A stretch of DNA of 64,000 bases from NCBI RefSeq assembly GCF_004765785.1, contig NZ_SBIT01000002.1, positions 1 through 64,000 of the forward strand, read 5' to 3'. Position numbers and translations under genes: made by a program. Positions 1,566 to 10,832 of this stretch are shown piece by piece (positions within the stretch are counted from its first letter, which is position 1; the number at the start of each line of letters is the position of its first letter). The notes below the pieces were generated by a model. It made no database searches and was not told the origin of the DNA. It saw nothing but the letters and a program-made list of their open reading frames with translations. Source of the DNA: Halorussus ruber. Its GTDB lineage: Archaea > Halobacteriota > Halobacteria > Halobacteriales > Haladaptataceae.

Positions 1566-2420
1566 ATGCCAGACCCCTCGGACACTTCTCGCCTCTTGGA
1601 CAAACTCGACCTCAAGGAGTACGAACAAACCGCACTCGAACACCTCTTCTCACTCGGCCGCACGACAGCGCCGAACCTCGCGGAAGCCACCGGCATCCCC
1701 AAGGCGCGCATCTACGGCGTCCTCGACTCGCTCGCGGATCAAGGCCTCGTCAAGATAATCCCCGGTCGCCCGAAGAAGTACCAACCCAAATCACCAGCAG
1801 AAATCCTCAACCGGGCGCAGGAGAACCGCCGCCAGTCGTTCGAATCCTACCGCAGAGAGATCGAGTCTGTTCGCGGCGAGTTCCTCGACACCTTCGGACC
1901 GCTGTACGAGCAGGCGAGCGAAGACATCACTCCGACAGAGGAACTGTTCTACGTCGTGGACGTGGGCGACCCGAGCGAGACCGAGACGCGCCAGCTGTAC
2001 CACGACGCCGACGAGACCGTCAACGTCCTCACGAAGAGTTTCGAGTACTTCGAGGAGGTCGAACCCGCTTTCGCCGACGCTGTCGAGCGCGACCTCGACG
2101 TACAGCTCATCTTTCTCGAACCGGAGTACCTCTCGGAGGAGAACGAGACCGTCCAGCGGGAAATCGTCTCGGCCATCGACGCGACCTACCCCGAGGTCGA
2201 GTATCGATTCAGTAAGGAGAAACTCCCGTGGCGGGGGACCCTCGCGGACCCGAGCATGGAGTACGAGACCGGGAAAGCCATCTTCCTCGTCGAGGAGAAG
2301 GACGTACCGCTCCACATGCGACAGGCCGCGGTCACGGAGAACGGGTCGTTCGTGGCCGGGATGAAGCGGTACTTCGACCTCATCTGGGAACACGACAGCC
2401 GAGAGACGGCCTGCGAGTGA
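1566..2420 (+). CDS. TrmB-family sugar-responsive transcriptional regulator
   Basis: The 284-residue protein has the TrmB layout: an N-terminal winged helix (LKEYEQTALEHLFSLG, residues about 15-30, then a recognition region IPKARIYGVLDSLADQGLV), a 'GRPKKYQPKSP' wing and linker, a coiled segment near residues 80-100 and a C-terminal PLD-like domain with no sugar-binding extension as long as in Thermococcus TrmB. Haloarchaeal TrmB proteins control sugar metabolism genes. Two palindromes matching the reported haloarchaeal TrmB motif (TACT-N7/8-GAGTA) lie 3-4 kb downstream, at the head of the convergent epimerase operon and over the start of a small ORF. This gene ends three bases before that operon's last gene, in convergent orientation. 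Whether it or another TrmB paralogue binds those boxes is not shown by sequence. Confidence 0.85.
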   Translation: MPDPSDTSRLLDKLDLKEYEQTALEHLFSLGRTTAPNLAEATGIPKARIYGVLDSLADQGLVKIIPGRPKKYQPKSPAEILNRAQENRRQSFESYRREIESVRGEFLDTFGPLYEQASEDITPTEELFYVVDVGDPSETETRQLYHDADETVNVLTKSFEYFEEVEPAFADAVERDLDVQLIFLEPEYLSEENETVQREIVSAIDATYPEVEYRFSKEKLPWRGTLADPSMEYETGKAIFLVEEKDVPLHMRQAAVTENGSFVAGMKRYFDLIWEHDSRETACE

Positions 2421-2423
2421 AAA

Positions 2424-3416
2424 TCAGTTCGCCTTCTGCCGAATCAGCTCTCGAATCGACTCCTCGACGGAGTGGGCCGTCTCCCAGCCAAGTTCCTCGT
2501 GGGTTCTCGTCGTATCGACCGCGAAGTCGCTAACGAGCGTCTCACCCTCGCGGGGGTTCTCGACCAGCGAGACCTCAGTCTCGATATCGGCCTCGTCGGC
2601 CGCAATCCCTTGTACCAGTTCGGCCACTTCCATCACGCTCGGGTCCTCTTCGCTGGCGAGTTCGTACTTCCGGACGCCCGTCTCGTTCGCGTCGAGTTGG
2701 TCGAGCATGACTTCCGCGCTCCGGAGGTACGCCCGCGCCACGTCCTTGACGTGGACGTAGTTGCGCGACTGGGTGCCCGGTTCGTAGACGGTCAGCGGTT
2801 CGTCGGAGAACACTCGATTCACGAAGAAGTTGATGACCGTGCCCTTCGAGACGGTACGGCCGTCAATCTCGTGTTCGCCATAGAGGTTCGATTTGAGGAA
2901 GAGATGGGCGGGGAACTCACCGTCGGCCATGTCCTCAACGAGGTGTTCGCCCAGTAGCTTCGTCCGTCCGTACCAGTTCATCGGGTCGCGCGGCAGGTCG
3001 CTGGTGATGGGGAAGGTCTCGGGGTCGCCCAGCACGGCCATGCTGAACGGGAAGACGAGCCCGGCACCGGTCTTTCGGCAGAACCACGCGACGTTGGCGG
3101 TCCCTTGGACGTTGACCTCGTAGGCGAGGTCCCGGTTCTCCTCGCAGTCCTCGACCCCGCTGATGGCCGCCAAGTGCATCACGATGTCCGCACCGTCGAG
3201 CGCTTCCTCCAATCGGTCTCGGTTTCGGATGTCGAGGTGTCGGACCGAGATGTCTTCGATTTCGCGCACGTCGCCGAGGTAGAAGTTGTCCACGGCGACG
3301 ACGTTCCAGTCGGGGTGGACCGCGCGGAGTTGCTGTACGACTCGACTGCCGATGTAGCCTGCGGCTCCGGTGACGGCGATCGTGGGATGGTCGCCTTCGG
3401 ACGTCGTTTCGGTCAT
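2424..3416 (-). CDS. NAD-dependent epimerase/dehydratase (extended SDR)
   Basis: The 330-residue protein carries the extended short-chain dehydrogenase fold: nucleotide-binding TGAAGYIG near residue 17, 'DIVMHLAAISG' near residue 75 and an active-site YGRTK (YxxxK) near residue 150. The family interconverts NDP-sugars (epimerases, 4,6-dehydratases, decarboxylases); the exact reaction cannot be read from the sequence. It is the last of three consecutive minus-strand SDR genes and overlaps the gene before it by four bases, which indicates translational coupling. It ends convergently with the TrmB regulator gene. Confidence 0.85.
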   Translation of the reverse strand: MTETTSEGDHPTIAVTGAAGYIGSRVVQQLRAVHPDWNVVAVDNFYLGDVREIEDISVRHLDIRNRDRLEEALDGADIVMHLAAISGVEDCEENRDLAYEVNVQGTANVAWFCRKTGAGLVFPFSMAVLGDPETFPITSDLPRDPMNWYGRTKLLGEHLVEDMADGEFPAHLFLKSNLYGEHEIDGRTVSKGTVINFFVNRVFSDEPLTVYEPGTQSRNYVHVKDVARAYLRSAEVMLDQLDANETGVRKYELASEEDPSVMEVAELVQGIAADEADIETEVSLVENPREGETLVSDFAVDTTRTHEELGWETAHSVEESIRELIRQKAN

Positions 3417-4399
3417 GGCTCGAAAGACTCGTCGGCCGCGTTAAACTCGGTCGGTTCGCCGCTCGACGTGAACCGGTCGGCGAGGTCGCGCACGCCGTCG
3501 CGGACGGTCCACTTCGGTTCGAAGCCAGTCTCGGCCAGTCGGTCGAAGTTGACGTGGTACGACGGGCCGGGGTGTTCGTCTTCGAGGTACGTAATGTCGA
3601 GGTCGCCGTCCACCTCGTCGCGGACGATTTCGGCGATTTCGGCGATGCGGTAGTTCTCGTCGTTCGCGCCGACGTTGTATACTAGTTCGGACCACGCGTC
3701 GGGATTGCACGCGGCGTGTTCGAACGCCCGCGCCGCGTCTCGGACGTGGATGAACGGCCGCCAGTTGCTCCCGTCGCCGTAGACGGTCAGCGGTCGGTCG
3801 GTCAGCGCGCGGAACACAAAGTAGTTGACGACGAGGTTGAACCGGATGCCGGGCGCGTAGCCGTAGTTCGTGCTCATCCGGAGCGCCGTGCCGTCGAAGT
3901 CGCCCGCCGCGACGTGGTCGGAAAGCAGTCTCTCGGCCTCGTGTTTCGTCTCGGCGTACGGATTGAGCGGGTCGGGTTCGGTCTCCTCGTCGATGTCGGT
4001 GCTGGTCGCGCGGCCGTAATTATTACACGACGACGCGAACACGACGTTCTCCACGTCGAGCTTTTCGGCCGCGGTCAGGACGTTCTCCGTCCCGTCGAGG
4101 TTGACGGCGTAGGTCTCGTCCTCTCGGTCGTGCGTGCTGTTTGCGCCGGTGATGGCCGCGAGGTGGACGACCGTATCGACGGTCCGCATCGCGCTCTCGA
4201 CGTCACCGTACTCGCGGACGTCGCCGCGTTTGAACTCTAAGTCCGCGTCGGCACCGACTCGCGCCGCGAGGAGATTCCGGGGAGAACCGGACGCGAGGCT
4301 GTCAAGAACGGTGACGTTCCCGACCTCATCGTTGGCTTGGAGTCGCGGAATCAGCACGCTACCGATGTATCCGCAGCCGCCGGTCACTAAGACGTTCAT
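3413..4399 (-). CDS. NAD-dependent epimerase/dehydratase (extended SDR)
   Basis: This 328-residue extended SDR starts with MNVLVTGGCGYIGS (GxxGxxG), has 'DTVVHLAAITG' near residue 75, an 'SSCNNYG' strand and a YAETK (YxxxK) active site near residue 148. It is a nucleotide-sugar-modifying enzyme of unknown specificity. It is the middle gene of the operon: 24 bases after the sulfoquinovose-synthase-like gene and overlapping the next gene by four bases. It is clearly related to that next gene in length and motifs, so the two may be an old duplication or may act successively on one sugar. Confidence 0.85.
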   Translation of the reverse strand: MNVLVTGGCGYIGSVLIPRLQANDEVGNVTVLDSLASGSPRNLLAARVGADADLEFKRGDVREYGDVESAMRTVDTVVHLAAITGANSTHDREDETYAVNLDGTENVLTAAEKLDVENVVFASSCNNYGRATSTDIDEETEPDPLNPYAETKHEAERLLSDHVAAGDFDGTALRMSTNYGYAPGIRFNLVVNYFVFRALTDRPLTVYGDGSNWRPFIHVRDAARAFEHAACNPDAWSELVYNVGANDENYRIAEIAEIVRDEVDGDLDITYLEDEHPGPSYHVNFDRLAETGFEPKWTVRDGVRDLADRFTSSGEPTEFNAADESFEP

Positions 4400-4423: not shown

Positions 4424-5647
4424 TCAGTCGAGTTCGGCCGCGACCTCGTCTGCGTCTGCCTGCTCTTCCTCGATGCGGTCTTCGAGGACGCCGGGCAGGA
4501 AGCGGTCCTCGTAGGCGGTGATAGTCTCCTCGTACTGAGTTAGCGTCTCGAAGATGTCGCGGACGCCCTCCTCGAACGACTGGGCCTGCTCGCCGACGAG
4601 GTCCATGTACCGGTCGTTCTCGATCTCCATCTTGTGAGTCTCGTCCTCGTCGCGCGGGTTCTCGAAGTGTTCGACCGCGACATCGTAGCCGAACTCCGAA
4701 GCGACGTCCGAAATCGTTTCGGCAATCTCTACGATGCTTATGGCACGCGTGACTTGGTTGTACACTGTGTAGTCGTCGGGGCGCTCGTCGGGGTCGGTCA
4801 GCGCGAGTCGAGCGAGGCCTTCGACGGCGTCCTCGAGGCTGACGAACGGCTTGCGCTGCTCGCCCTTGCCGTACACCGTCACGGGGTAGCCAGCGATGGC
4901 CTGCGCGCAGAAACGGTGGGCGACGGTCCCGAAGTAGTAGTCGAAGTCGAACCGGGTCTTGAGGTGGTAGTCGTCGCCGCGGGTCTCGGCGGTCTCGGTC
5001 CCGTAGGCGATGGCGGTCCGCACGTCGCTGATGGGGATGTCGAACTGCTGGTGGGCCAGCCGCATGTTGGCGGCGTCGTGGGACTTGGTGAGGTGGTACC
5101 AGCTCCCCGCCATCGCGGGGAAGGGCACGTCGTCACGCTCACCCTGATTCTCCATCGTGGCACCGCCCTCCGGAATCGGGAACTCGGGGGCACCGTACAC
5201 GCCGGTCGTGGTCGTCTCGATGAAGTGGGAGTCGGTCAGGTCGTGTTCTTCGAGGCCCCAGAGGAGGTTGCGAGTCGCTTGGAGGTTGTTGTGCTGAGTA
5301 TAGTTCGCGCGCTCGCCGTTGATCTGGGAGTACGGCGCGGACGGCTGGGCGGCCGTGTGGACCACGGTGTCGGGTTCGTGGACCGAGAGGAGTTCGTCCA
5401 CGAAGTCCTTGTCCGTCAGGTCACCCTCGACGAACGAGAGGTTGTACACGTCGAGTTTGGCCTTGGCCGCGCCCAGTCGCTCCTCCATCTCGCGGATGGG
5501 AATCGCGCTTGTGCTACCGATTTCGCTGACCCACTCGCGTCGCGCAAAGTTGTCTACGGCGACGACGCGGTCGTCAGTACGTTCGGCGATTCGGAGAGCA
5601 GTCGGCCAGCCGATGTACCCATCGGCGCCCGTAACTAGTATCGTCAT
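4424..5647 (-). CDS. UDP-sulfoquinovose synthase-like NAD-dependent epimerase (SQD1 family)
   Basis: The 407-residue protein starts with TGADGYIGWPTAL and contains the long insertion and 'GSWYHLTKSHDAANMRLA' active-site region (near residue 180) that resemble plant and bacterial SQD1, which joins sulfite to UDP-glucose to form UDP-sulfoquinovose. The TTTTGVYG strand supplies the catalytic Thr; Tyr and Lys of YxxxK are present. It is longer than the two SDR genes after it, as expected for SQD1. It is the first gene of a three-gene operon, so the pathway may add a sulfonated or otherwise acidic sugar to lipid or N-glycan; the true substrate is unproven. A palindrome ends one base before the start codon (5649-5671) and probably controls the operon. 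An alternative is a related NDP-sugar epimerase without sulfite chemistry. Confidence 0.75.
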   Translation of the reverse strand: MTILVTGADGYIGWPTALRIAERTDDRVVAVDNFARREWVSEIGSTSAIPIREMEERLGAAKAKLDVYNLSFVEGDLTDKDFVDELLSVHEPDTVVHTAAQPSAPYSQINGERANYTQHNNLQATRNLLWGLEEHDLTDSHFIETTTTGVYGAPEFPIPEGGATMENQGERDDVPFPAMAGSWYHLTKSHDAANMRLAHQQFDIPISDVRTAIAYGTETAETRGDDYHLKTRFDFDYYFGTVAHRFCAQAIAGYPVTVYGKGEQRKPFVSLEDAVEGLARLALTDPDERPDDYTVYNQVTRAISIVEIAETISDVASEFGYDVAVEHFENPRDEDETHKMEIENDRYMDLVGEQAQSFEEGVRDIFETLTQYEETITAYEDRFLPGVLEDRIEEEQADADEVAAELD

Positions 5648-5648
5648 G

Positions 5649-5671
5649 GGTTACTCAGACTGCGAGTAACC
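5649..5671. promoter_or_regulatory. TrmB-like operator of the nucleotide-sugar operon
   Basis: GGTTACTC-N7-GAGTAACC is a perfect 8-bp inverted repeat immediately before the start codon at 5647. It contains TACT-N8-GAGTA, the motif reported for Halobacterium TrmB. A TATA-like TACTTTTTAGG lies just upstream on the minus strand, so the box is downstream of the TATA element, a position that favours repression. Confidence 0.6.
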
Positions 5672-5790
5672 ACCCTAAAAAGTATTGTTATTTTAGATTT
5701 GGCTGGCGGTTTCACTTGCCGAAGCTGAGACTAAGCAGTACGCTTTCTGTGATAGAACCTTCGAGCCTCCAAAATCGAACGAAACCGACG

Positions 5791-5910
5791 CTATTCGTCT
5801 TCGCGCTGTTCGCTCAGTCGTTCCGCAATCTCGATGCAACCGTCTCCGTCGCCGAGACACTCTAGGTGGTCACTCGCGTCGTCTTCCGGAGCCGAATTAG
5901 AGTTACTCAT
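5791..5910 (-). CDS. Small acidic two-cysteine protein (39 aa)
   Basis: A 39-codon frame encodes a serine-rich start, then a conserved-looking segment DHLECLGDGDGCIEIAERLSEQ with two cysteines eight residues apart. Very short haloarchaeal proteins with a DHLE..DGxGCxEIxExLSE pattern are familiar, but no function is known to me. Support comes from the strongly acidic composition and from a palindrome over the ATG that matches the one at the head of the neighbouring sugar operon. It could instead be spurious given its length. Confidence 0.5.
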   Translation of the reverse strand: MSNSNSAPEDDASDHLECLGDGDGCIEIAERLSEQREDE

Positions 5911-5922
5911 TGTCTGAGTAAC
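5902..5922. promoter_or_regulatory. Second TrmB-like box, over the start codon of the 39-aa ORF
   Basis: GTTACTC-N7-GAGTAAC repeats the motif at 5649-5671, with the same arms and the same 7-base spacer length. The ATG of the small ORF (5910-5908) lies inside it. Two such 14-bp matched arms within 260 bp are unlikely by chance. Confidence 0.55.
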
Positions 5923-10275: not shown

Positions 10276-10363
10276 ATGACCAGCGCCGCGCCGCCGACCA
10301 TCGCCAACACGCCGAGGCCGATGCCGACGCCCCAGAACGGGACGCGTTTGACCGACCTCACTC
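10276..10363 (-). repeat. Diverged duplicate of the uppP 3' end
   Basis: About 80 bp repeat the last codons of uppP (11459-11540) at roughly 89 percent identity: both copies encode VPFWGVxIGLGxLAMVGGAALVI followed by a stop (TAG here, TGA in uppP). The copy lacks the rest of the gene and overlaps the 3' end of the toxin-like gene. The two copies are direct repeats enclosing a gene pair, as in insertion at the 3' end of a gene. Confidence 0.75.
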
Positions 10364-10810
10364 CAAATCGCTCGTCTCGTGGAGTCGCTCGACGCGCTCG
10401 CTCGTCCAGTCGAGGACCGTGAACAACACCTCCAGAAAGTGGGCGTCGAGCGGCGACTCCTCGGCAGTACCCGCGTCCGGCGGCGGGTGGAAGTGCGTCC
10501 TCGGCGCGTCGGACTTCGGGTGGCGGTCCCATCGACATTGGTACTGGTCGTCGCCGCGGCGCTCGACGTAGTGCAAGGAGTAGTCGTCAGTCGTGAACCA
10601 GCGAACGTCGAGCCGAACCGCGTCCACCGCGGCCGGATACGTCTCCGCGTCGATTCGGAGTTCGAGCAATCGCGGCGCGGCGCTCGACGGGTCGAACTGC
10701 CACGACTCGACCAGCGGATGCGTATCGGCGCGTCTGCCGATGGTCCGAAGCGTGGGCACGTCGAGTTCCCCCATCGGAACCGAGTCGCCGTCTCGTGGTG
10801 ACTCAGACAT
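10358..10810 (-). CDS. TumE-like (DUF6516-type) putative toxin
   Basis: The 150-residue protein has 'WFTTDDYSLHYVER', a cluster of basic and aromatic residues (QYQCRWDRHP) and 'THFHPPPDAG', followed by a C-terminal helix 'LEVLFTVLDWTSERVERL'. This order resembles the TumE/DUF6516 family, small proteins paired with helix-turn-helix antitoxins in haloarchaea. It follows the HTH gene by 22 bases on the same strand, as expected of a toxin-antitoxin operon. The pair is bracketed by the uppP 3'-end duplication. Assignment to the family is by motif resemblance only. Confidence 0.6.
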   Translation of the reverse strand: MSESPRDGDSVPMGELDVPTLRTIGRRADTHPLVESWQFDPSSAAPRLLELRIDAETYPAAVDAVRLDVRWFTTDDYSLHYVERRGDDQYQCRWDRHPKSDAPRTHFHPPPDAGTAEESPLDAHFLEVLFTVLDWTSERVERLHETSDLE

Positions 10811-10832
10811 CGCGTTACGGCACCTCGGGAGT

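Follow-up and report, generated by a model that had tools for sequence, protein, structure and literature searches.

A palindromic operator shared by sulfoquinovose-synthase-like and small-protein genes of haloarchaea, and a TrmBL2-like paralogue as its likely reader

The closest described systems are two kinds of TrmB-family protein and one sugar-nucleotide enzyme. Canonical haloarchaeal TrmB (VNG1451C/HAH_1548; NF047392) carries a PF01978 winged HTH, has sites near start codons, and in Halobacterium recognizes the consensus TACT-N7-8-GAGTA (PMC4158304). ChIP-seq of canonical TrmB in Haloarcula hispanica yielded 15 peaks, none of which lies at a sulfoquinovose-synthase or NAD-epimerase gene; TrmB-family proteins exclude RNA polymerase from sites downstream of TATA, and activating sites are located upstream of TATA/BRE (PMC10817205). 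TrmBL2 of Pyrococcus (PDB 5bpd, 5box) is a chromatin protein that occupies coding as well as intergenic regions (PMC4158304; title of entry 5bpd). The enzyme is UDP-sulfoquinovose synthase (Arabidopsis SQD1, Sulfolobus Agl3). Its sugar substrate is UDP-glucose, and it consumes sulfite (PMC4388408).

The locus studied here lies in a window of 64,000 nucleotides (the whole stretch of Halorussus ruber DNA that was analysed), and comprises the following features:

1566-2420, plus strand: TrmB-family regulator, 284 aa, TrmBL2-like, proposed reader of both operators; PF01978 without PF11495
2424-3416, minus strand: epiB, NAD-dependent epimerase/dehydratase, 330 aa, PF01370; third gene of the operon, syntenic with sqd in most loci
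3413-4399, minus strand: epiA, NAD-dependent epimerase/dehydratase, 328 aa, PF01370; second gene, syntenic with sqd in nearly all loci
4424-5647, minus strand: sqd, UDP-sulfoquinovose synthase-like protein, 407 aa; heads the operon
5649-5671, no strand: operator 1, perfect palindrome GGTTACTC-N7-GAGTAACC, between the TATA element and ATG of sqd
5676-5682, minus strand: TATA-like stretch of the sqd promoter, upstream of operator 1
5791-5910, minus strand: orf39, conserved small acidic protein, 39 aa, with its start codon in operator 2
5902-5922, no strand: operator 2, perfect palindrome GTTACTC-N7-GAGTAAC, including the orf39 start codon and kept at orf39 homologues

The genes sqd-epiA-epiB form a compact minus-strand operon (5647-2424), with orf39 upstream of sqd on the same strand. 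The first-pass annotation had described two matching boxes, one directly before this operon and the other over the start of a 39-aa ORF, and both proved to be perfect palindromes in these positions. Operator 1 reads GTTACTC-AGACTGC-GAGTAAC at 5650-5670 (its arms are 8 bp long if 5649 and 5671 are counted) and the ATG of sqd follows 2 nt downstream; operator 2 reads GTTACTC-ATTGTCT-GAGTAAC, and the ATG of orf39 is located inside it, within ATGAGTAAC (Met-Ser-Asn). The likeness to the Halobacterium TrmB motif pointed out in the same annotation also holds, as the core TACT-N8-GAGTA at 5652-5668 and 5904-5920 fits the published site (PMC4158304). In the window, no clear TATA element was found for the orf39 promoter.

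The annotation had called for a whole-genome scan for the TACT-N7/8-GAGTA type, and the outcome depends on the strictness of the pattern. The exact palindrome GTTACTC-N7-GAGTAAC occurs at these two sites and nowhere else in the 4.32-Mb genome, against a chance expectation from base composition of 8e-5 exact sites per 64 kb, or 0.006 per genome. Since about 0.006 sites were expected and two were found, and since the reversed control pattern gave no site in any of the genomes scanned (below), the feature is not due to chance. On the other hand, the loose pattern TACT-N6-9-GAGTA gave 31 forward matches in the same genome, where the controls gave 15 and 7, and by eye many of the 31 fall within genes. 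This pattern was rejected as a definition of the regulon because it is too weak. Six sites of this genome with two mismatches were inspected and revealed no consistent target. A box with three mismatches at 10798-10818 of the window lies across the start codon of a minus-strand ORF of 150 aa (10358-10810), possibly by chance.

Conservation was assessed in 392 haloarchaeal genomes with a completeness of at least 90%. One to three exact sites are present in 117 of the 392, and the reversed control has zero sites in the same scan. To the window copy of sqd, 80 homologues fetched with their flanks were added, and 69 of these 81 genes carry the box (49 exact, 12 with one mismatch and 8 with two); with up to two mismatches allowed, the reversed control matched twice in 1.57 Mb of sequence from these loci. 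The boxes had been open to refutation by a lack of conservation in related genomes, and the conservation turned out to be very strong. The box-to-ATG gap is 1-2 nt in 62 sqd loci, the class consensus is AGTTACTCA-N5-TGAGTAACT, and the arms are fixed base by base while the spacer varies. In the column profile of the 69 sqd loci, an A/T-rich TATA-like stretch lies 10-22 nt before the box and is itself preceded by a BRE-like A-rich stretch. By this comparison of sequences, the box is a class-wide haloarchaeal operator. Among open-access papers, no earlier report of the site or of the regulon was found.

Forty-six of the 49 exact-box loci examined are at sqd or orf39, and the remaining three belong to Halomarina. 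In these three genomes, the third exact box (L212:2023, L216:2064, L220:1996) follows a TATA-like element and precedes, by approximately 300 nt, a gene that carries a haloarchaeal surface-glycoprotein signal and partly resembles S-layer glycoprotein. Elsewhere, boxes with one or two mismatches (L102:2418, L114:1218, L119:2524) immediately precede a sugar nucleotidyltransferase gene, after which comes glmS. Both sets of neighbours fit surface glycan synthesis.

As regards the protein that would read the box, a TrmB-family gene had been noted at the other end of the operon. It does adjoin the operon, ending 3 nt from the last gene, but it is convergent with sqd-epiA-epiB and hence not part of it. 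The protein scores 63.4 bits against PF01978 (cut-off 25.6), which identifies a TrmB-type winged HTH, whereas the PF11495 sugar-binding domain is absent at E values up to 1. Against the canonical haloarchaeal TrmB model NF047392, it reaches 42.5 bits, over the HTH only, versus a cut-off of 500. The true TrmB of the same genome is encoded elsewhere (G000:C6) and scores 613 bits, with 222 bits for PF11495. Among solved structures, TrmBL2 comes nearest to the paralogue, in the sequence comparison (72.7 bits) as well as in the fold search, and TrmB ranks next; TrmBL2 is of similar length and likewise has no sugar-binding domain. The AlphaFold model is poor (pLDDT 65, pTM 0.40) and was used only insofar as it agrees with the sequence-based match to TrmBL2. 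Unlike the chromatin protein TrmBL2, the paralogue is predicted to have a specific palindrome with few sites per genome; unlike canonical TrmB, it is predicted to act on different targets within a narrow regulon of 1-3 exact sites per genome.

The distribution of the paralogue follows that of the box. It is present in 137 of the 392 genomes, including all 117 with an exact box (Fisher P = 2e-79; because the genomes are related, this and the other P value given here are descriptive). Of the other 20 genomes with the paralogue, 18 have a box with one or two mismatches at sqd or orf39, and in the remaining two the regions are incomplete. Nine of the 12 fetched sqd copies without a box are in genomes lacking the paralogue, and the other three are in genomes where the paralogue is accompanied by an additional, boxed copy of sqd. 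In a tenth genome (G297), sqd and orf39 occur with neither box nor paralogue. Haloarcula genomes carry the paralogue gene at a distance from sqd; there, the exact sites that were inspected either precede sqd or separate the paralogue gene from a divergently oriented orf39. The Haloarcula and unboxed cases carry the most weight, since they separate the regulator from sqd. One genome of the Haloarcula genus retains only part of the paralogue gene, interrupted by two stops, beside a still exact sqd box (G360:C1:2351645-2352115), a natural loss.

We consider it likely that the TrmBL2-like paralogue acts as a repressor at both operators, controlling a sulfosugar regulon that includes orf39. The paralogue, presumably dimeric when bound, would occupy the palindrome downstream of TATA and before the ATG, thereby blocking RNA polymerase at sqd-epiA-epiB and at orf39. 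Both the DNA binding and the repression are predictions from the genomic data, and a single predicted regulon comprising sqd and orf39 is supported. The location of the box after the TATA element favours repression, as the first-pass annotation had reasoned from the window, and the same position recurs in the 69 boxed sqd loci.

Other modes of action appear unlikely, namely that the paralogue reads the boxes as an activator, that its effects are mixed, or that it chiefly regulates its own gene from a divergent promoter. Activation is possible for TrmB-family proteins, and in Haloarcula and other haloarchaea a box lies in the intergenic stretch that borders the regulator gene. However, the box at sqd is downstream of TATA, on the opposite side from activating sites (PMC10817205), and both in the window and in Halorussus amylolyticus the orf39 that the box accompanies stands apart from the regulator gene. 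A box that marks only the promoter of the regulator was rejected, because in these two cases orf39 is not beside the regulator gene.

That the boxes are sites of the canonical glucose-responsive TrmB (Halobacterium VNG1451C type), with sqd and orf39 under sugar control, is more improbable still. The box core TACTC-N7-GAGTA fits the published site, the genome does encode a canonical TrmB, and such half-sites may be common to the HTH domains of paralogous TrmB-family proteins. Canonical TrmB nevertheless shows no association with the box: it is found in 100 of the 117 exact-box genomes and in 236 of the 275 others (P = 1), and 17 exact-box genomes have no canonical TrmB above the cut-off. Conversely, seven of the nine genomes with unboxed sqd and no paralogue still have canonical TrmB. 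The absence of a corresponding peak in the Har. hispanica ChIP-seq (PMC10817205) bears on the same point; with the exact box in 25 of 25 sampled genomes of the Haloarcula genus, Har. hispanica itself would be expected to carry a boxed sqd. Since the paralogue tracks the box and canonical TrmB does not, the paralogue is the likely reader, and the cognate regulator is very probably the local paralogue and not the glucose-sensing protein. Of the earlier assignment to TrmB-family operators, the part that stands is the neighbouring TrmB-family protein as likely reader; the glucose-responsive TrmB system is not supported, given the 42.5 bits and the missing PF11495, and the proposed glucose control of acidic-sugar synthesis and of the small protein finds no support, the presence of canonical TrmB being unrelated to the box.

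Perfect inverted repeats adjoining start codons could also suggest RNA hairpins at the 5' ends of transcripts, a reading that we regard as extremely improbable, since the TATA spacing puts the transcript start inside the box and leaves an RNA without the 5' arm (which makes a DNA site over the initiation region most likely), the pattern of fixed arms and variable spacer is that of a protein site, and the box tracks one DNA-binding protein.

With the repressor reading, the nature of the targets may be considered. The sqd protein aligns with Arabidopsis SQD1 (1qrr) at 245 bits over residues 3-354, approximately 350 residues, with YHLTK matched to YHLSK of the YxxxK motif. Its score against NF041015, however, is 373 bits over 385 residues, below the equivalog cut-off of 575; the predicted operon product is probably a sulfoquinovose-type surface sugar. 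The narrow regulon of the paralogue would serve the synthesis of this sugar, and the orf39 product would be a small companion of sulfite-handling enzymes.

The possibility that orf39 is spurious was rejected on the basis of the invariant residues in 25 homologues (His, two Gly, Cys, Glu and Arg; core HLxx(I/V)xDGxGCxEIWExLSEQR). The box lies over the ATG of most homologues or just upstream. The family is present in 369 of the 392 genomes, and no Pfam family was found for these proteins. Of 20 sampled unboxed orf39 copies (L232-L251, e.g., L233:3955 and L242:4013), 15 have a nitrite/sulfite reductase-family gene next to them, and in one of these 15 the cluster also includes siroheme genes and a gene with a PAPS-reductase domain. 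A further sampled unboxed copy is beside an unboxed sqd operon. Given the reductase neighbours and the role of sulfite as co-substrate of UDP-sulfoquinovose synthase, we propose, with moderate confidence, a role for orf39 proteins in assisting enzymes that handle sulfite, although the adjoining reductase could be a nitrite reductase instead. A DUF7119 gene is a further neighbour of many unboxed copies. One Haladaptatus genome that lacks the paralogue has a plasmid on which the end of orf39 falls on the first base of sqd, as if the two formed one operon (L095:9855-10001), which links orf39 to sqd independently of the regulator.

A wider picture can be put forward only tentatively: a class-wide, previously unreported regulon for sulfosugar surface glycans, whose TrmB-family repressor may sense a sulfur or nucleotide-sugar signal and not glucose, and in which the small protein may deliver, bind or sense sulfite for both sulfoquinovose synthase and assimilatory sulfite reductase.

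Across much of the haloarchaea, the present analysis connects an uncharacterised TrmB-family paralogue with a predicted DNA site and a predicted set of targets, and it cautions that not every TACT-N8-GAGTA site belongs to the glucose-sensing TrmB. It gives a genetic context, sulfite/nitrite reductase and sulfoquinovose synthase, to a widespread family of small proteins. In addition, one protein, one 23-bp site and one deletion would suffice for a direct test of how archaeal sulfosugar synthesis, probably that of surface glycans, is controlled.
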